From Naegleria lovaniensis (taxonomy: Eukaryota > Heterolobosea > Eutetramitea > Acrasida > Naegleriidae), in assembly GCF_003324165.1 (NCBI RefSeq), contig NW_025407891.1, positions 3,249 to 66,139 of the forward strand: a stretch of DNA of 62,891 bases, read 5' to 3'. How positions within the stretch are numbered: the stretch's first letter is position 1; the number at the start of each line of letters is the position of its first letter. The notes beneath the pieces are model-generated. The model was not told the origin of the DNA and did no database searches. It saw only the letters and a list, made by a program, of their open reading frames with translations. A program made the translations under genes and the position numbers. Positions 9,170 through 44,319 of this stretch are shown here, one piece after another.

Positions 9170-11893
9170 TTAAACCGCATTGTCAGTATTGATTGAATAA
9201 TTTACAGGTGCAGTAGAGGTGGACGAATTCGAACTGGTAGAATTTTGAGAGTGGTTGTTGTTACGATTAGCTTTCAGCTCGAGCTCACAATTCATGAGAT
9301 AGGGATAGTAGGACGTTGGAGAAATCCAAGGAAACTCATGATGAATGGCATGGTATTTCACCACTTGAATGTTGGATCCAAATAATAAATTTAGTAATCG
9401 ATCCAAATGCATGCATTGAGGGAGGATGTTGTTGATCTTATTCACAAATTTAACCATATCAAATTTGTGAATGAGTTGGGTGAAGATTGCCAACACATAG
9501 CTGGACGCAAATCTCGAGCTCAGTATTACCACGACATAGGAGGTTGTGAACATGACAGTCAGCACAATGAATACAAATATTTTCACTGTCATAATGACAA
9601 CAAATCTCACGAACTGTTTGAATTCTGTGGATTGCAAGATATTATTCTCAATTGCTTGCAATTTGCTCACCAAGTGTGAAGCATAGATTATAGAATAGTA
9701 TTCTGGAAAAAACATGCACTTGATGAGAAGAAGCAATACGTTTTGTGTTGAAAAGAACACAAAATCTACATCCTTCTCTGTCTCTGTAAACATGTGATGT
9801 GTTTTGTGACCGTACTTGGCAATTGAGAGAGTGAAAAACTGACCAAAAGTACCAAGGCCAATCAACACCTCAGAAACAACATCAAACTTTGCACAGGCGT
9901 GCAACACTGTGTGTAAAGAAAGAGTCCACAAGATCGTACAATATTGTTGAACTAGAAACACCTGCCACCAAGAGAGAACACCAAAGTAATGAAACACCAT
10001 CATGAGCAGAGGAACGCCATTGAGAACGTGATTATACACGAGTTCGCTTTTCCTTAAATCGGTCACATTCACTACTTCGTGTTCTTTTCGTTTGATCAAT
10101 TCTATTGAGACTATTTCGTCGATGGGTATGGTACTTACAGATGTGTGAGAGTGTTGAGAGGATTGTTGTTGAAAGGCTACCTCTGGTATGGATTCAAATA
10201 CTTCGTCATCACTGCAATAATTGTTATTGGTTGAGAGAGTGGTCACTTTGCCGTCCGACAAGGAATCATCCCGAATTTCGATGGTAATGAAAGAATGTGG
10301 ATGTAACAATTGTTTCTTTCGTTTTTCATGTCGTATAACATCCAAATAGGTTACTGGTGAAAAAGATGGCGTGGTAATGATTGGAGTTGTTTCATCGACG
10401 AGTTGCTCTTTGTTTGTAAGTATGATCTTTGGCTTCTTTTGTAATGAAGGCAGTGGATGATTTTCATGTTTGAATCGAGGAGATTTTAAACACCATCCCA
10501 TGTAACCAACGGCAACACTCTGAAAGTTCTTGTAGATGTCATACATGAGAAAGGCTTCTTCATCTTTCTTTGACGACAGCTCTTCCAATTGTCGATTCAT
10601 GCTTTCCATACATTTTACAAGCTCTGAAAGGCAATTCATGATGCTGTCCTCCAAATTTGATCCTTCATGCTCTTTCATCCACAGAGAGATATAATTGTTC
10701 TTAATTCCACATTTCAAATCTTTAGGATAGGAACAAACGTCGTTGACAAGAATGCATGCTTTGACAGCATCATTATAGAACTCACTCTTTCTGAGGTCGT
10801 CAAACATGTTTGAGATTGTACTGGCAACAACGACTTGATCCATTCGTGTGTTTTCTTCATTCCTTCCGACAGCAATCAAAAAACCAAAATACATTAAAAC
10901 TTTCGCTAATGAATCACTTTCTCTCATTTTCAAGTACTCTCTTACTGATGGACTCGAGTCCTTCACCCACAACTTTGCCATCCAAACATTGTTCTCGAAT
11001 GTTTCCATCATGATGGATCTAACATTCTCGAAATGATCAATCTCGAAACTTGTCCTTGATGACTGACAAACGGATGACGTTAACTCTGAATAACACTGTA
11101 AAAGGACTTTCTTTCCAAGCTCCAAAGATGGGTTGAAAGTAGATGTGACAGTACTGTGTTTTGTACGACTTCGTGAAGCCCCTATCGCTGAGGATGAATG
11201 ATGTAAAATGGTGCTTGATAACACACTTGAAGCTGTGACAACTTCAGCCGAAGCTTGAATTGGGGATGTTGTCACTGGATCTGTATTGGTAGAGTCTGCA
11301 TTTGGACTGGTTAATGCACAATAATCGCAAGGAGAATCAGCTGGTGTTGTGATATGGAGAGCTAGTGTTGCATCTGTTGTTGGACTTAACAACAGGGTTT
11401 CTGGTTGTGATGTTATGGTTGTTCGATTCTTGTCCGTGGTAGGAATAGAAGGATAAAGGGTGGCTAACAATTCAATATGTGATTCTAGTTCGTCTCTTAA
11501 TTCTCCAGTACAATCCTTCTCTTGATCGCAGGCATCATCCACAACGCTAAGATAAGCGAGAAGTGAAGCAAATAGTTGAAGATGCTCTAATGAAGCATAT
11601 GGAAAGCAGAGTGAGATCCAAAAACAAATATCTACGATGCCTTTCTTGTGATATTCATTGTCAGGAAATTGACATTCTTTGAATTGGACGGATGTGTTTT
11701 CAATGATCTTTTGAAAGTGTGTATTGGTTTCAAGGGTTTCTAGACTGCAGAGATTGAACAATGACTCTGATAAAGAATGAAGGGATTGACGGCTCTCTTC
11801 CTCTCTCGTTTCTTTCGTTGATAGTGATGAAGAATTGTCACTCATCTTTTTTAAATGTTGTGCTATTTTCAAATTGCTATGCACTTTTTTCAT
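9170..11893 (-). CDS. Terpene synthase - membrane desaturase/hydroxylase fusion
   Basis: This is one uninterrupted 907-codon frame. The N-terminal half is a class I terpene cyclase: DDACD (119-123) as the first metal motif, the effector arginine in REYLKMRESDS, the NSE motif NDVCSYPKD (384-392) and the closing SPRF in place of the usual RY pair. A Ser/Thr-rich insert of about 100 residues (150-255) separates the two metal motifs. After a linker (480-610) the C-terminal half has several membrane spans and three histidine boxes: HTVLH (661-665), HKTHH (696-700) and HAIHH (848-852). That is the pattern of membrane di-iron desaturases and hydroxylases. Known chemistry predicts cyclisation of a prenyl diphosphate followed by oxidation, probably at the ER. 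The coupling is inferred. An alternative ATG is codon 17 (11845). Confidence 0.85.
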   Translation of the reverse strand: MKKVHSNLKIAQHLKKMSDNSSSLSTKETREEESRQSLHSLSESLFNLCSLETLETNTHFQKIIENTSVQFKECQFPDNEYHKKGIVDICFWISLCFPYASLEHLQLFASLLAYLSVVDDACDQEKDCTGELRDELESHIELLATLYPSIPTTDKNRTTITSQPETLLLSPTTDATLALHITTPADSPCDYCALTSPNADSTNTDPVTTSPIQASAEVVTASSVLSSTILHHSSSAIGASRSRTKHSTVTSTFNPSLELGKKVLLQCYSELTSSVCQSSRTSFEIDHFENVRSIMMETFENNVWMAKLWVKDSSPSVREYLKMRESDSLAKVLMYFGFLIAVGRNEENTRMDQVVVASTISNMFDDLRKSEFYNDAVKACILVNDVCSYPKDLKCGIKNNYISLWMKEHEGSNLEDSIMNCLSELVKCMESMNRQLEELSSKKDEEAFLMYDIYKNFQSVAVGYMGWCLKSPRFKHENHPLPSLQKKPKIILTNKEQLVDETTPIITTPSFSPVTYLDVIRHEKRKKQLLHPHSFITIEIRDDSLSDGKVTTLSTNNNYCSDDEVFESIPEVAFQQQSSQHSHTSVSTIPIDEIVSIELIKRKEHEVVNVTDLRKSELVYNHVLNGVPLLMMVFHYFGVLSWWQVFLVQQYCTILWTLSLHTVLHACAKFDVVSEVLIGLGTFGQFFTLSIAKYGHKTHHMFTETEKDVDFVFFSTQNVLLLLIKCMFFPEYYSIIYASHLVSKLQAIENNILQSTEFKQFVRFVVIMTVKIFVFIVLTVMFTTSYVVVILSSRFASSYVLAIFTQLIHKFDMVKFVNKINNILPQCMHLDRLLNLLFGSNIQVVKYHAIHHEFPWISPTSYYPYLMNCELELKANRNNNHSQNSTSSNSSTSTAPVNYSINTDNAV

Positions 11894-12464: not shown

Positions 12465-15400
12465 ATGAACGATCAAAGCCTTAATCCTTCGTCCGGGAAC
12501 AGTAACATCAATACTACAACTGTTGCTGGTGCTGCGAGTGGCACTAACTCTCATCCCTCTTCGACCCATAATCATGGCCATGGATCAGGAGATAGAACGC
12601 ATCATGTTCATCACTCTTCCCAAAATTCTCTCATGGAAGCAGGTCCTCCATCAGGCCTAACATCAGGCTTCAAGAAGGTCAACTCCAAGTAAGAAATGAA
12701 AGCTTTTCGAGCACTTCAGGAGAGACTTTTTCCTCTACCGACCTCTCTACCTTGCACTACAAGATCACCCAAGATTTGATGACATTTCTCTTCACCATGC
12801 AAAATAATTCGAGACATTATGGATGGAAAAATTACTGTCTTGATTTAATATTACATGCCCAGATATTTTGGAGTTTTATATTCATTCCTGTGTTGAGTCC
12901 TCAAGACTTTTTGTTTGGGCAATGGGGAAGTTGGATATTTACCATTTTAAATTGGAACACATCACTCTCAATGGATCTACTGCCTTATTATGGAGCAGTT
13001 GGTATTTCTAGTGCTGGCTTATTTCTCTTATTCATGATGTTTATGTTGTACATTGTCGGTAGGAAAGCAGCACTTGATACATCAAGTATGGTGGTGTATT
13101 TGAGAAAGGTTCTTCATGCTCTGTCTTTTATAATCATTTTGTTCTCGGCTCCAATAGCATTTATATTTTCAAGCTTCTTTGACTGCAGTTATGGATTTCC
13201 AATTATACCTCATGCAACCACTGCTGGTACAATCATACTGTCTAACAGTACCCAACCATCTTCCCTTGAAAACGGCGGTATGAATTTGAATAGATTTCCC
13301 ATGACTTCCTGTTTTTCTAGCGACAACATTATCATGTGGACTATTTCACTGATTGGAATGATTGCATTACTAGCAGTCACAGTGTTGTCTTCATGTATCA
13401 TACCTCACATGCATCCTTTAAGCACATCCCTGTTCAAAAGTGATTCCTTGTTGTTTAGAGTGAGTTTTTTAGCCTGCAACATTGTTTCCATCACTATACA
13501 TTATTTGATTCCTCCGCAATGGGCCTTCGCACGATCTGCTGTTCATATTGCAATAAGCATGGGGATGGCTTTCTTAGTTTTCAAAACAATCCCAATGATG
13601 AGAAGATGGGAAAACTCTCTTCTCTTTGCAATAACATTAGGCAGAGTCGGCACCTCTCTCGGTGGACTTATTTCACATTTAGCTAATACAACATTGAGTA
13701 ACGAGTTTGGAATCGCAATGACCATGATGACAATTGGTTTCATGGCTCTTTTCTTTGTTGCTGGCTTTGTGAGCATGGAACTTTATACAAGGATTGTGTT
13801 TAGTATGTTTAAAAGCAGGTATTTTAACCCTCAAGACGAAGATAATGGAGGAGAACGAGAACTACTGCAATTGTATCATATAATGGAAGAAAACAAGCAT
13901 TTACCGCTCTTATATTTGTAAGTATTTAGTGTGCAGTGTATGGCAGAAAAATTTACATATTTTTTCAGATATCTAAAGTTTTCCATGACCTCATCTAACC
14001 ATGACGACCTACTTCACGGAATTAACCTCATTCGTGGCGTCACATCCTTGAAAGCGTTTAATGACATTCACTCACTAATTGTGTCGGCTCTAATAGTCGC
14101 ATACTTTATACCTGATGAAGTTAATTCGTCAAGTTTTGCTCAAGCCTTGCTAAAGAAGGCCATAAAACAACGCCCTCATATATTTCTAAAATTCCTAATC
14201 GGTCAAAAGAAAAAAGAGATTGAAGTTTACACCACGGAAGTAATTAAAACTAATGGATCTATGGAGTTGAACTCGACACTCTTTAAAGTTGAAAAGAAAA
14301 TTAAAGAATTAACGGCCATTCATAGACACTTTTTTAAGGAATTAATGCAGGAAATTGTATCATATGAAAAAGCTGAAAGAATGATGATGCGATGTGCAGT
14401 TTTGGAAGGAGAATGTGATTCTATTTTCAAAAATGTTCTTAAGCTATTCAACAACAACAAAACAGTGCTTAGAATGTAAGTATTAAAATTTTATTAGGCA
14501 CGATGCTATATGTACTAATATCAAGGTATGCACAATATTTGGAAGCATTCAAATTCAACAAACAGCTGGCACAAGAGTTTTATATGGAGGCTTCTAGTAT
14601 TGAGGAAGAAGAATCTGTTCGAAAGCGAGTTATAGGCTTTAGAAATAGCGGCACAAAAAAACTTGCCAAAAAAACCAACCGAGCATCCGTTGTTCATCCG
14701 GAATCAGAGGAGAATCCAACAACATTGCAGGATTCAGACAAGAGATTTCGTTCTAATAACTCGATCACTGTCAGTGTCCATTCTAGAAATGCTACAGAAG
14801 AAAAACCACCTGATATGGAAAGAGCCAATAGTGAGTCCAGTTTTGATCTTACAGGAGTAGACACTTTAAACAACGAAGCAAAACGTGAACTAACCTACAG
14901 ATCCACATTATCAACACCATCATCGAGAGCTATTCAACTAGGATTGTTTTTGTTTTTCATTGCACTTTCATTTCTGCTTGTCACTGCAAGTTTAGTTATA
15001 GGCTATTTCATTTCTCACGAAGTTACAGACCACGTGACAACGGCACGTAGCGCATGTGCTCCTGTTATGGGATTAACAACAATACTGGTCAATACTCGTG
15101 GATTTCAACTTGTACAAAACTTTGGATCTGAGAGCTTAGCTCATGATGTTTCAACCCAATTGTTTCTAGATATAGAGGAAAATAAGGAAATGATGAAAGG
15201 TAAGTGGAGGGTTTCATATAATGGTGTCAAACCACTTGACAAATCCAGAGATGATGAGCTTGGCAATGGAACTAAGATCGGCTGCTTATGATTCTAAATT
15301 TTCTGACAGGATTTATGGTGTTTATCACGGAGAAGGCTTCCCCGTGCTTATTCCTCAAATCGAAGACCACAGTATTAGAGTTTATAATGTCACCGCAAAA

Positions 15401-18275
15401 GAAAATGCCACCATAGCAGATATCAACAGCATGATCATAGAAGCTACCAAAAAATTGCTACAGTATGACGACATAGAGCTGAAACAAACCTTAACTAGTT
15501 ACGAGTTCATGTTATTGCATAGAAATTTTGATACTTTTACCCACGCCTATGAGAAATTTTGCGGAATGTTCATGGCTTCTTCTCAAAACGACGCGTTAGA
15601 ATTGAATCATACCTATATCACTTACACATCTATTTCTCTTTCTATTTATGTTGTATTTTCAATTTTTTACATGATTTTTATGAGATTTGATTTGGTAATT
15701 GTAAAAAAGCAAATTAAGCTTTTGCAAAAGTTTGTTACGAGGTAAGTTGTTCTGCCGTCTTTGCCTTGATGTTGAGGTATTTTCTTTCAAGAAATGAGAT
15801 TGGAAAGGTGAGTTTGGAAGTTTGATTATTTCTTTTGCTAATGTTGTTCAGATTTATCATGCACTCGGTAAGAGAGTTGGAGACGAAACGACAATACACA
15901 TTTCTAAAGCTGCATATTTGAAGCCAAAAAATTTATTTATCATACTCACCATGGCCATGGCGTTCACAGTAACTCTTAGTTGTGTTCTATTCTTAGAGGA
16001 AACCCTTGCTAATACCAATTACAGCGTGCAATCGTACTCTACCATCAGATACAGCTATCACACGCTGACATTTATTCAACACATCGCTTTCTATGTTACA
16101 GAAATATTTTCCTCAAAAGTAGCACAAAACCAGACACAATTATTGACGCCTGAAGAGCTTGAGTTTTTCCATGACGATTTCAACAATATTATAGCCTCTG
16201 TAAGAGAATATTGGGGGTTATGCTTGTACGGATCTGATGAGCAATCAGGCAGAGATAAAAGAGTGATTGGCTTATTTCCTGAAACTGACGAAATGATTAA
16301 GGGTAATGAAAATTGCACCCTCGAACAGATTTTACATGACTCAACATCTCGTCATAATTTTTCATGTGTTGTTGGCGTTGACAGTACCATTTCTGACATT
16401 GTTTTGAAGAGTAGAAAACTTCTTGAAGATGTTCAAGCCTCAGACAGCTCAATGTGGCAAAATATCAACTTTTTTATGGACATTGCTTTTTTAACCAGCT
16501 ATGTCTCTCAAGTTTTGATCAAGTTTTCGGATGTATTTGCTTTGGCTTCCAGTGAACCCAAGCTAGAACTATTTACAGCTGTCGCAGTGTTAGCTTTCAC
16601 AAGTTTGGTTGTATTACTTTTTGGTTTAGTGAACTCCATGTCACTTCACGCAAAAACGACATTTACCATGAGAATGATGTTCAATTATATTTCTCTTGAG
16701 ACGATTGAAGCTAACGAACGATTGAAAAATTATGTCTTGTATCACTCTTTAATAAGCTTCTTTGAGAAGTTAAGCTACCAAACAGACTCGGATAGCTCAG
16801 ATGCCAAGCTCATCTCGATTTTGAATGCATCCGTTGAGGGAGTGGTGCTTTGTAACTCGACACTGGGGATGGAAATTGTGAATCCTGCTTCTCTTAGAAT
16901 GTTCGGCTATCAAAGTGAAGATGTAATTGGCAAGCCCCTAGTGTCGTTATTCGAAAAGAATAAGCAAGACACGATACGAAAAGAAATCGAGTCAATGAAA
17001 GCAAGTGTCACGGAGCATGATTCAAAAGGAGAAACATTTGATGTGGATTGTATTAGGAAAAATCAGACATTATTTCCATGCAAGGTAACAATATTCGTGT
17101 CGGTGTTCCAAAAGAAGCAGATCGTTACTTGTTTTCTCAAAGACGTAACCTCTGAAAAGAAACAAAATTCTCTTCTTGCAGAAGAAAAGAAGAATAGCGA
17201 AAAGTTGTTACTTAATATTTTGCCTGAAGAGGTTGCTACTCAGTTAAAGAATGGTATTAGTCTAATTGCAGAGAAATTTACTGATGTAACTTGTTTTTTC
17301 AGTGACATGGTGAATTTTACAGGTAGGTTTTGAGTGTGAAACACATGTTTTTTCCAACATTTACCTTGCTTAGCCATGTCGTCCACAATGAGTCCGTCAG
17401 ACTTGGTCCAAATGCTCAATATTATTGTGAATGGATTTGATGATCTTACTGATACATATGAAATTGAAAAAATCAAAACAATTGGTATGTTTTAAAGTTC
17501 CCATTAATATATATAATATACTATTATTTTAGGAGATGCTTATTTTTGTGCTGGAGGACTTTTTAATAGCTTATCCGACCATCCGGAAAGAGTACTTCGG
17601 TTCTCTATGGATACTTTTTCAGTGATCCGACAATTCAATAGCAAGTTAATGTTGGAGTTTTATGGTAATGAAAACAATGTACCTCCTCAACAAATTAATA
17701 TTCGCTGTGGCATTAACACTGGTACGTTTTTTTGCATTTTCAGTTTCATGAATGGATAACATATCTAAAAACCAATTTCTAATGAACTACAGGTGGTGTA
17801 ATTGCAGGAGTGATTGGAAAGAAAAAGGTATGTATTAGAATGATTGGCATTATTTCTTTTACATTTGTCACAGTTTGCTTTTGATTTGTGGGGTGACACC
17901 ATCAATGTGGCCAGCAGAATGGAGAGTACAAGCAAGCCTGGAAGAGTAAGAATTAGGTACGTTTTTGTTTTGGGTTTGATATCCCTCTTTTACACTACTC
18001 CATGGATGAAAAGTCGCTCAACATATGAACGAGTGCATGATCTTGGGTTTACATTTGTGGAAGAAAAGACCGATGTTAAAGGCAAAGGATTGACACAAAC
18101 CTACTTGTTGAATGCGTGTCATCATGTATGTGCCATATTGACATCAGAAGAAATTAATACACTTAGAAGCGAGAAGGATGATTTAAGCGTTGAGAGGCTT
18201 AGTCAAACCAACCTTAATCAATTAGACAATGCCAACGAGAATTTCTCAAAACAATCAGATCTCCCACAACAATAA
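12465..18275 (+). CDS. Multi-pass PAS-linked adenylyl/guanylyl cyclase
   Basis: The gene has eleven exons: 12465-13917, 13969-14475, 14526-15199, 15249-15741, 15792-15807, 15852-17322, 17374-17484, 17533-17721, 17793-17827, 17874-17956 and 18014-18275. Joined, and with one extra base supplied near 12688, they give 1764 residues. A Ser/His-rich N-terminus is followed by several groups of membrane spans with large extracellular loops. A PAS domain (GVVLCNSTLGMEIVNPASLRMFGY and on) leads to a helical stretch with NILPEEVATQLKNG, then a class III cyclase domain with FTDVTCFFSDMVNFTG, KIKTIGDAYFCAGGL and FAFDLWGDTINVASRM. It would make cAMP or cGMP, with the PAS domain sensing a small ligand. The frame change near 12688 is either a lost base or an intron I could not place. 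Confidence 0.88.
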
Positions 18276-25019: not shown

Positions 25020-25098
25020 TTTTATTGAGGAGGGTCAAATGGACAAAGTTCATCATGAAACTGTTCCAAATTGGGAACCATAAAGGATGACCTCTCAA

Positions 25099-40736: not shown

Positions 40737-40751
40737 CTGGCGTTCCCAACT
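40737..40751 (+). repeat. Left terminal inverted repeat of the P-like element
   Basis: CTGGCGTTCCCAACT, exact inverted match to 44606-44620. Looser similarity continues inward for about 20 bp (CCA, then GTGTTACA). Confidence 0.8.
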
Positions 40752-40878
40752 CCCAGAAATAGTGTTACAATAGCATTTGGAAAGCACTTTATTTTTTAGA
40801 ATCCTAACCATTTTAAAAAAGGTCGAGCAGGCTGTCGAAGTTTTGTTCTGGTGTTTGCTGGAGGTTTTTTCAATAAAA

Positions 40879-43800
40879 ATGTTAAAACATGAACGAAACG
40901 CCTTTGTCGGTCTGTTGAGACCGGAATATCATGTTGCCATCAAAACAATGCTATTCGCAGTCCATCAATATATTAATGTCGAACATTTAATAGAAGATAT
41001 TATTGATCAATGTGGATTTCATCGCAAGGATTTTAATACCATCCATCGCCATCTCGAACTATATTTCTCATACCTCATCACACACAACAAACGAGTCCCA
41101 TTTGTTCTATACTGTTGCAAATTCCAGGTTGACAATTCAACAAAGATTGCACAATATGTTACTGATTGCATTGACCCGGACGAGGATAGTGCTATCTATA
41201 ACATTTACTCTGACCCAAAATTTCAAAATCAAAGACAAAATCAAGAGTTAACATCAGAATGGATCAACAAACTACATTTTCAAGGCTATTTGAAATTGAA
41301 AGAGTGTCATGACGAGCTGATGCGAATTCGTCAAAAACGTAAACACTCCAAAACAAGTACAGCTTGCGAAGACCCACCTCAAACCTCAACAACGTCACAA
41401 CGTTATTCTAGTTCAACCATCATGAAATTACTCGAACCAGAAAAAAATGTCGGCGTTATTGAATTACATAAAATCCTGGATCATGGTTTTGCTGAAGACT
41501 ACATCACGTTGTCATATTCAACAAAAGAACAAACAGCACCGTATTACATGCTGCAACAACTAATTAACAACAAATTTATTCCAACACACTCATCAATTGT
41601 AAATACCAAGTCCGACACCATCTCTCATAATTTTGTAGACCATGCTGATTTTAAATCACAAAATAACGATGATGATAGTTATTATTCGGAATGTGATATA
41701 TTTGATGAGGATATTCAAGAATTGAAAAAATTGTTTTTTCAGGTGTTAGGTAGTCGCAAATTAGTACCTCGAACTTTCTTTTTCACATATCTTCGTGATG
41801 CTTTTTCACAATTAATTTGCAAAGACAGTAGAGGCCATAGATGGAGCCCATCTGTTCTTTGTTTTGCTCAAGATTTATTGGTTATCATGGGATACAATGC
41901 GTATGAAGCATTGGCGAGAGGGTTGAAACGAGGACAAGAATTTGAACCCTCTTCTGAAAGATGTAACTTAGTCCTACCTTGTTCATCCACACTCGACCAT
42001 CATTTTCACACCGCATCATATGGAGAAGGGAATACTAAACTAGACAAAGATGACTTTGATAAGCTAGTAGAAAAAATGAAGGTTATTGAAAATCAAAATT
42101 TTGGTCTTGTTCAAATTGATGCAGTAGATGTAACACCGCATTTAGGAATCAATACCAAGCTTGGGCTTGTATACGGTGCCAATGAAGGTCCATTGAAGAT
42201 TAGTGATTGTACTGCACTAGCTCAGAGTCCGAATTTTCCACCCAAGGGTTTTTTAGCTGAAAAAATTGTTCAAACTTTATATTGCAGTATTAACGGTGAA
42301 GTTCGAATTCCTGGAAACTTCAAAGTATGCACTACTGAAACTGAACAAACCATTAGAGACACGATTTCTGAATTTCGTGACACATATACTCGAAACATCG
42401 TCTGTACTGTGTCAGATGCAGGGTCTGCTAATTACAAATATTTCACATCGAGCCCAAATGAACTACATCATTTTTGCTACAGTCACCATTGCAAAAACAT
42501 GAGGAATGCAATTAATGGGAGACCAAAATTATATCCGGTTGCCACTAAAGTAGGTGCTCCAAACCTTCAAATTGCACGCCATTCCTCTGCTTGTATTTCT
42601 TCCAACGACAACGGAAACGGTTGCCATTTGATGAAAATTGTTATTCAAAGAACACAAGCGACCAACATACCACTTTCCTTCATAGTGAATGACAAAGACA
42701 CAATTTCATTTGAATGGAAAGAAAAAGAACCACGGAATTTTAACTCTGGAGGCATTTCTTTCTATCATAGCAGCAATGACAACGAATTAAGTGTTACGTT
42801 GTTGAGTGAAACCCTTCATACTAACATTGGTAAAGTGTGTGTGGCAAATTTTAGCAATCAAGACATAGCTGTCACCAAAATTTCTTGTTCTATTTTACAA
42901 CGATTTGAATTGAACACACTCGATGAAATATATAGACAACAACCTTTAGAGTGGTGTAAAATAGTTAAACGGAGCTCGTTTATCAAATATGATGATCAAT
43001 CTGAGGATGTATTACGTGATGTATGCAATTTACAGTTACTTGAAAAATTACGATTATTGAACGAGAGAACCAACTATCGATATTTAGGATTCTATAAGTA
43101 CTTAAAAGCGATACATGATTTATTTCATGTTTACGATGACAAAAATCATGATGGAACATCTTCACACAATTTGCACGAAGTGTTGCAAGTTCTTAAGGAA
43201 AATTTGGACTATTTGAATGAGTGGGATACCGTTTTCCAAGACGTCATTATTTCCAATAAGAATAATAATTTTACATTATCCGGAACCCTCACAAAAAACA
43301 TCATTATCCATAACATCAAAACAATTCAGAAATTGATCAGAATTATTCCACAAGATGCAGTTTTTGATTTGTCTTTATTGGGAACACGTTCTCTTGAAGG
43401 ATTTTTCGGAGAGTCACGTGATTATTCAAAAAGAACCACAGTATTGGACTATCATAGAAGTTACTCAAACATGAAAATCAAATTAGTGAAAAAAGAATGT
43501 GTATATCTTTCATACAATAACGATAGAAAGAGGAAATATTGTGATGCCCCTAGTCAAATTAACCAACAAATTTTGATGAGAATGACTGAAAAACAATTTG
43601 TTGACTTTAATAATGAAAGAAAGCAAGCTAGAGAAAGCGTGACATCCATTTCTTATAGTTTTACAGATCAAGATTTAATTTGTGCGAAAGACTTACAATT
43701 GCGATGTTTACAACATCGTGTCAACTCCATCCGTCAATCATACCATCAGTCAAGACATGACTATAGGGCCGGATTTGCCACCGATTTCATGGAGACAAGC

Positions 43801-44319
43801 ATTTCCAATTACTACAACATTTCACTTCCTGTTTTCCATATTGAAACAAGTGAAGTTTTGCCAAACTTAACAGAACGACTTACATTAACCGACGACATCA
43901 GTTTTACCATTATTCAAACACACGACTCATTAATTCATGCTCAAAATCATATTGCGGCATTTTTGCTTAAAAAGCCCGTAGAATTTGAAATTAAGACTAA
44001 TCATATTTCTTTGAGCAATGCAACCGTAGAGGTTCGCAATTTCAATGAGAACAATGAAAATGCATCTCGACATTCTGAACCAATTAACTCATTTAAAATA
44101 TTTGTGGCACCAAATCAGACGGATCCATTCAAATTTAAATTAATTGGACAATTTTCATCAACAACCAGCACCAAGCTTTATCAAAAACAAATTGCTGTGA
44201 TTGTTGGAAATTATCAGTTGTTGTCACCTCCTTTTTACGTATTTGCAAAGAAAACAAAAAACCTCGTTTCGTATTCCCAGCTGAGCCAGGTGGTGGCTTC
44301 GTCTCAAGACATGCAATAA
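40879..44319 (+). CDS. P-element/THAP9-like transposase
   Basis: The protein is 1146 residues from the ATG at 40879, which follows an A-run; the frame opens at 40777 only by a TTG. An RNase H-like core is recognisable: LVQIDAVDVTPHLG with a candidate first aspartate, VSDAGSANYKYF with a second, and HFCYSHHCKNMRNAI, matching the D-x2-H-L-x-K-x2-R-N region of P transposases. Downstream, LGTRSLEGFFGESRDYS matches the C-terminal N-F-F-G-x-I/V-R segment of the P-element family, with a candidate acidic residue. No N-terminal THAP zinc finger is evident. It would cut and paste the surrounding element. An intact frame of this length is notable. Assignment to P versus a sister superfamily needs a profile search. 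Confidence 0.7.
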   Translation: MLKHERNAFVGLLRPEYHVAIKTMLFAVHQYINVEHLIEDIIDQCGFHRKDFNTIHRHLELYFSYLITHNKRVPFVLYCCKFQVDNSTKIAQYVTDCIDPDEDSAIYNIYSDPKFQNQRQNQELTSEWINKLHFQGYLKLKECHDELMRIRQKRKHSKTSTACEDPPQTSTTSQRYSSSTIMKLLEPEKNVGVIELHKILDHGFAEDYITLSYSTKEQTAPYYMLQQLINNKFIPTHSSIVNTKSDTISHNFVDHADFKSQNNDDDSYYSECDIFDEDIQELKKLFFQVLGSRKLVPRTFFFTYLRDAFSQLICKDSRGHRWSPSVLCFAQDLLVIMGYNAYEALARGLKRGQEFEPSSERCNLVLPCSSTLDHHFHTASYGEGNTKLDKDDFDKLVEKMKVIENQNFGLVQIDAVDVTPHLGINTKLGLVYGANEGPLKISDCTALAQSPNFPPKGFLAEKIVQTLYCSINGEVRIPGNFKVCTTETEQTIRDTISEFRDTYTRNIVCTVSDAGSANYKYFTSSPNELHHFCYSHHCKNMRNAINGRPKLYPVATKVGAPNLQIARHSSACISSNDNGNGCHLMKIVIQRTQATNIPLSFIVNDKDTISFEWKEKEPRNFNSGGISFYHSSNDNELSVTLLSETLHTNIGKVCVANFSNQDIAVTKISCSILQRFELNTLDEIYRQQPLEWCKIVKRSSFIKYDDQSEDVLRDVCNLQLLEKLRLLNERTNYRYLGFYKYLKAIHDLFHVYDDKNHDGTSSHNLHEVLQVLKENLDYLNEWDTVFQDVIISNKNNNFTLSGTLTKNIIIHNIKTIQKLIRIIPQDAVFDLSLLGTRSLEGFFGESRDYSKRTTVLDYHRSYSNMKIKLVKKECVYLSYNNDRKRKYCDAPSQINQQILMRMTEKQFVDFNNERKQARESVTSISYSFTDQDLICAKDLQLRCLQHRVNSIRQSYHQSRHDYRAGFATDFMETSISNYYNISLPVFHIETSEVLPNLTERLTLTDDISFTIIQTHDSLIHAQNHIAAFLLKKPVEFEIKTNHISLSNATVEVRNFNENNENASRHSEPINSFKIFVAPNQTDPFKFKLIGQFSSTTSTKLYQKQIAVIVGNYQLLSPPFYVFAKKTKNLVSYSQLSQVVASSQDMQ

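Follow-up and report, generated by a model that had tools for sequence, protein, structure and literature searches.

Does Naegleria lovaniensis carry a terpene synthase and a membrane oxidase on one polypeptide, and could the two act in series? The question is raised by an open reading frame on contig C70 of its genome, within a stretch of 62,891 nucleotides that we call the window. An initial annotation had read this frame as a terpene cyclase fused to a membrane di-iron desaturase or hydroxylase, and our analysis supports this interpretation at the level of sequence. The frame has exactly the extent claimed for it, on the minus strand, and runs free of stops for 907 codons from the first ATG (Table 1). 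This length holds for the open frame but probably not for the protein: because the public proteins of N. lovaniensis (P0001) and N. fowleri (P0002) both begin at Met17, this conserved methionine is probably the true start, giving a protein of 891 amino acids. Codon scoring, in which stop codons count heavily, ranks frame 0 best in 14 of 14 segments of the ORF, the S/T-rich insert and the linker included.

Table 1. Predicted features of the fusion gene, with positions given in the window.
Feature	Residues	Position	Strand	Evidence
Fusion ORF, 907 codons		9170..11893	-	PF19086 and PF00487 matches
Likely true CDS, Met17 start, 891 aa		9170..11845	-	N. lovaniensis P0001 and N. fowleri P0002 begin there
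Class I terpene synthase domain	55-480	10454..11731	-	PF19086 at 273-418; solved synthases match weakly either side of the insert
DDACD (DDxxD metal motif)	119-123	11525..11539	-	invariant in N. fowleri
S/T-rich insert between the metal motifs	152-253	11135..11440	-	39% S+T; frame 0 best
NDVCSYPKD (NSE-type metal motif, final D)	384-392	10718..10744	-	aligns with NDVLSYRKD of PDB 8h6q; invariant in N. fowleri
R473-F474, at the position of the C-terminal RY pair	473-474	10472..10477	-	aligned to R-Y of 8h6q and 9wf7; Y replaced by F here
Linker	481-591	10121..10453	-	60% identity with N. fowleri; in-frame, stop-free; frame 0 best
Membrane fatty-acid-desaturase-type domain	592-876	9266..10120	-	PF00487 at 641-858; custom profile; hhalign; 77% identity with N. 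fowleri
Histidine box 1, HTVLH	661-665	9899..9913	-	profile-aligned; invariant in N. fowleri
Histidine box 2, HKTHH	696-700	9794..9808	-	profile-aligned and hhalign; invariant in N. fowleri
H809, ninth His	809	9467..9469	-	in conserved desaturase His column (profile alignment); invariant in N. fowleri
Histidine box 3, HAIHH	848-852	9338..9352	-	profile-aligned; invariant in N. fowleri

On the basis of its family match and its motifs, the N-terminal half is assigned to the class I terpene synthases. Pfam family PF19086 scores 44.5 bits in the N. lovaniensis ORF (E 2e-11) and 38.1 bits in the N. fowleri protein (E 1.8e-9) against a cut-off of 23.7, while solved terpene synthase structures match this half with a best E of 6.6e-5. 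All the catalytic motifs named in the initial annotation were located, the two metal motifs here and the three histidine boxes in the other half, and all are kept in N. fowleri. The segment from NDVCSYPKD through R473-F474 aligns to presilphiperfolan-8-beta-ol synthase (8h6q, E 1.4e-4), which shares the KD ending of a motif in which D replaces the usual E. The flank of DDACD aligns weakly to caryolan-1-ol synthase (9c7i, E 0.018) and T-muurolol synthase (9hqi, E 0.14); an unrelated protein follows at 0.22. We take R324, assigned by eye from its motif context, to be a candidate diphosphate sensor arginine.

The S/T-rich insert shares only 36% identity with its shorter N. fowleri counterpart, with 37 gap columns; as the codon score favours frame 0 here too, we read it as a probable fast-evolving coding insert. 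A profile search of the 30.69 Mb genome found PF19086 nowhere besides the fusion gene and a second copy on contig C38, and a scan with PF03936 gave no match there, nor did it give one in its controls. Three polyprenyl synthase matches in the genome could supply substrate.

The C-terminal half appears to belong to the FA_desaturase superfamily, as a divergent member in which no metal-binding histidine is missing. Pfam support, which the initial annotation had proposed to check for both halves, is clear for the synthase and narrow for this domain, where it comes from the full-length N. lovaniensis protein alone: PF00487 reaches a marginal 33.4 bits there (cut-off 29.7, E 5.1e-8), whereas neither N. 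fowleri P0002 nor the isolated C-terminal piece has it among the families at E <= 1. NCBIfam models gave only an ABC-permease match to the isolated piece (E 0.094). Among the three families listed at E <= 1 for the full ORF there is no FA_hydroxylase family; the family that matches is FA_desaturase, and the domain may act as a hydroxylase or as a desaturase. The box spacings of 35 and 152 residues (661/696/848) are normal for desaturases, and hydrophobic segments at 622-648, 709-738 and 758-805, from Kyte-Doolittle values only, match the expected transmembrane helices. H809 is presumably a further metal ligand, a role we assume from solved desaturases.

Since PF00487 was missing for N. fowleri and the isolated piece, we built a dedicated profile from 17 desaturases, six of this genome and 11 from bacterial plasmids, with 200 window-shuffled copies as control. 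Scored without the HMMER composition correction, N. lovaniensis reaches 32.7 and N. fowleri 30.5 bits against 22.6 for the best shuffle, and two reversed copies and three other window ORFs rank outside the best 25. All three boxes and H809 of N. lovaniensis are aligned in order. Under the correction N. lovaniensis drops to 7.1 bits and N. fowleri to 2.2 bits; two of the 200 shuffles then score above N. fowleri, and in best single-domain score several shuffles (6.1-7.0) lie above N. lovaniensis (5.3). In leave-one-out runs without correction, N. lovaniensis beats every shuffle in 16 of 17 cases, as compared with 15 of 17 for N. fowleri; true divergent desaturases, when left out, score 15.5 (L015), 21.4 (L018), 31.2 (L012) and 38.1 bits (L010). 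This is complemented by hhalign, which assigns a probability of 90.6%, as compared with at most 2.1% in 40 shuffles, to an alignment of 19 columns around box 2.

The marginal Pfam score would also suit a domain that is catalytically dead and serves as a membrane anchor. We consider such a dead domain improbable, as none of the nine candidate ligand histidines differs between two species whose proteins are 67% identical overall (alignment; 62% by BLASTP) and the desaturase domain is conserved about as well as the synthase blocks (77% as compared with 82, 69 and 78%).

Are the two halves truly joined? The genome sequence confirms that the predicted synthase and desaturase-type domain share one frame in N. 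lovaniensis, and the linker, which the initial annotation had placed at about 10065-10455, agrees with the segment delimited here. A gene-model artefact, with two transcripts or with the linker spliced out, would find its signal in a single donor-like GTAAGT at codon 586, close to the linker. We regard this as very improbable indeed: the linker is open in N. lovaniensis and conserved in N. fowleri, the public protein models of both species read through it, and the second copy on contig C38 is likewise open across the junction. The desaturase part 3' of the GTAAGT is the 77% conserved segment.

The fusion also occurs in a second heterolobosean, as the initial annotation had proposed to look for: the N. 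fowleri protein (865 aa) contains the whole of it, with the metal motifs kept. Conservation is lowest in a loop at residues 342-366 (16% identity). The fusion is thus common to a pathogen, N. fowleri, and to the non-pathogenic N. lovaniensis. It is easily missed, because the public N. lovaniensis entry (P0001, C9374_009223) is partial and ends before box 2, at the matching end of another contig, and because the stored Pfam annotation of P0002 gives PF03936 and PF19086 only, without a desaturase.

The copy on C38 is open over codons 1-692 and ends with the contig just before box 2. The overlap holds 11 substitutions, five of them non-synonymous and all five before the desaturase part, where they make up five of eight; the three that fall within the desaturase part are silent, and a single indel of three bases preserves the frame. 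C38 is collinear with window positions 9816-44316 at 98.1-100% identity, has extra sequence near 25030 and 30165, and shows no match past 44316. Most simply, these patterns would be those of the other haplotype with insertion differences; the genome paper, in the part of its text available, names a diploid-aware assembler (PMC6125883). Since collinearity breaks off exactly where a repeated element has its far border, one contig may be misjoined at the repeat, or a segment may have been duplicated recently. Searched with the whole protein and with the C-terminal domain, the genome yielded no additional copy of either. The repeated element itself (40737-44316) has one 1180-aa ORF without a Pfam match at E <= 0.001, recurs at full length 19 times (itself included) with protein sequences 100% identical, together with degraded pieces, and looks like a recent mobile-element burst.

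The fusion gene is adjoined by several plus-strand ORFs (12752-17333), the last with PAS domains, which are perhaps one intron-split signalling gene. A short-chain dehydrogenase (adh_short, 1e-32) lies on the minus strand at 434-1516, some 7.7 kb from the fusion gene, and we found no evidence tying it to the fusion pathway.

If the fusion is real, the desaturase domain might still act on another lipid, be it an acyl chain, a sphingolipid or a sterol, with the fusion serving anchoring or co-expression. Members of PF00487 act mostly on acyl lipids, and those plasmid-borne members used here that carry an annotation are labelled as desaturases of fatty acids or acyl-CoA. Against this, pairwise similarity to seven other desaturases of the genome was not measurable (z <= 2.6), and a search of 2030 candidates of 191-609 aa from a protein collection brought up no stand-alone relative of the C-terminal domain at E <= 1e-3. 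Such a lack of close relatives argues indirectly against a common-lipid enzyme, which would more likely have them, and we judge this alternative unlikely, although less so than the loss of catalysis. The seven desaturases scored pairwise derive from 13 PF00487 matches in the genome, of which L016 is the fusion gene, L013 shares its ORF with L012, L019 equals L018 in length with a similar score, and L008, L014 and L017 have no usable frame; the profile took in the other six, without the stop-split L011.

The synthase half found P0001 only, among about 8000 candidates admitted to the search, where S/T low-complexity words may have crowded out others; its scans of prokaryote genomes, of viral contigs and, by tblastn, of plasmids gave no relative. 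The same held for desaturase L009 in prokaryotes and, by tblastn, for L010 in plasmids. With the desaturase half, tblastn gave two plasmid matches at E 5-6, one of which spans 84% of the query, coincides in part with a true FA_desaturase and is a weak hint. As separate observations on two further unusual desaturases of the genome, L015 (1459-2427) carries a HAIHH box as in the fusion, and L009 (1276-2370) shows a weak match to an L-arginine hydroxylase model.

The reading that we favour, with moderate confidence, is a bifunctional two-step enzyme that would cyclise a prenyl diphosphate and oxidise the product. The N-terminal synthase would ionise the prenyl diphosphate with the help of Mg2+ coordinated by DDACD and NDVCSYPKD, and then cyclise it; the C-terminal membrane domain would bind two irons via its histidines and draw on O2 together with electrons supplied by another protein, which is probably cytochrome b5, because no b5 domain is fused here. 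The hydrophobic cyclised product would then be hydroxylated or desaturated at the cytosolic face of the membrane. Family knowledge points to the Mg2+-dependent cyclisation, the di-iron oxidation at this face and the separate b5; the fusion itself suggests that what the first domain makes is the substrate of the second. Points that weigh against this reading are the F in place of the RY tyrosine, the D in place of the NSE glutamate, the low profile scores after composition correction, and the non-synonymous changes on C38 before the desaturase part. From the fusion we infer, as the initial annotation had proposed, that the terpene may be fed directly into oxidation.

Given the fusion, one polypeptide may suffice for this amoeba both to cyclise a terpene and to oxidise it. 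If the halves work in series they would form a compact non-P450 route from a prenyl diphosphate to an oxidised terpenoid, and the gene would be a single place to seek a Naegleria terpenoid product. We tentatively propose, at odds slightly below even, that the protein represents a new class of enzyme, namely a cyclase-oxidase anchored in the membrane and converting a prenyl diphosphate into an oxidised terpenoid on one polypeptide, in which a desaturase-type di-iron centre does the usual work of a P450 and which contains the only PF19086 synthase found in a Naegleria genome.

In the open-licence literature we found neither a terpene synthase-desaturase fusion nor a terpenoid described as a Naegleria product, and the word "terpene" is absent from the main text of PMC6125883, PMC9928731 and PMC11702301. 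Amoebal terpene synthases like the N-terminal half of the fusion are described, in the available text of PMC6902781, from dictyostelids, Physarum and N. gruberi, those of N. gruberi clustering with the dictyostelid ones; the words "fused", "fusion" and "P450" are absent from the main text of that paper.

With bacterial-type class I synthases (8h6q, 9c7i, 9hqi) the fusion shares alignable DDxxD and NSE regions in the same order, and it has a candidate counterpart of their C-terminal RY pair with F for Y; it differs from them by the S/T-rich insert of about 100 residues, a second variable loop and the C-terminal membrane domain. With the membrane desaturases of PF00487 it shares the HxxxH, HxxHH and HxxHH boxes, here at spacings of 35 and 152, the hydrophobic segments and the ninth histidine, but its domain is very divergent and located behind a terpene synthase. 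It has no fused cytochrome b5, in contrast to L007 and L012, two other desaturases of N. lovaniensis.

In the HAD-domain drimenol synthases the second domain is a HAD domain and not a membrane oxidase. These enzymes likewise are bifunctional and combine a terpene synthase with a second catalytic domain, as described in the accessible text of PMC9128629. Fused steps of one terpenoid pathway are further described, in the sections of PMC10016063 at hand, for the carotenoid fusions crtIBY and relatives in protists. Like the enzyme proposed here, crtIBY places successive terpenoid steps on one polypeptide in a heterotrophic protist; it differs in being built from the phytoene synthase, phytoene desaturase CrtI and lycopene cyclase families, and we claim no homology.
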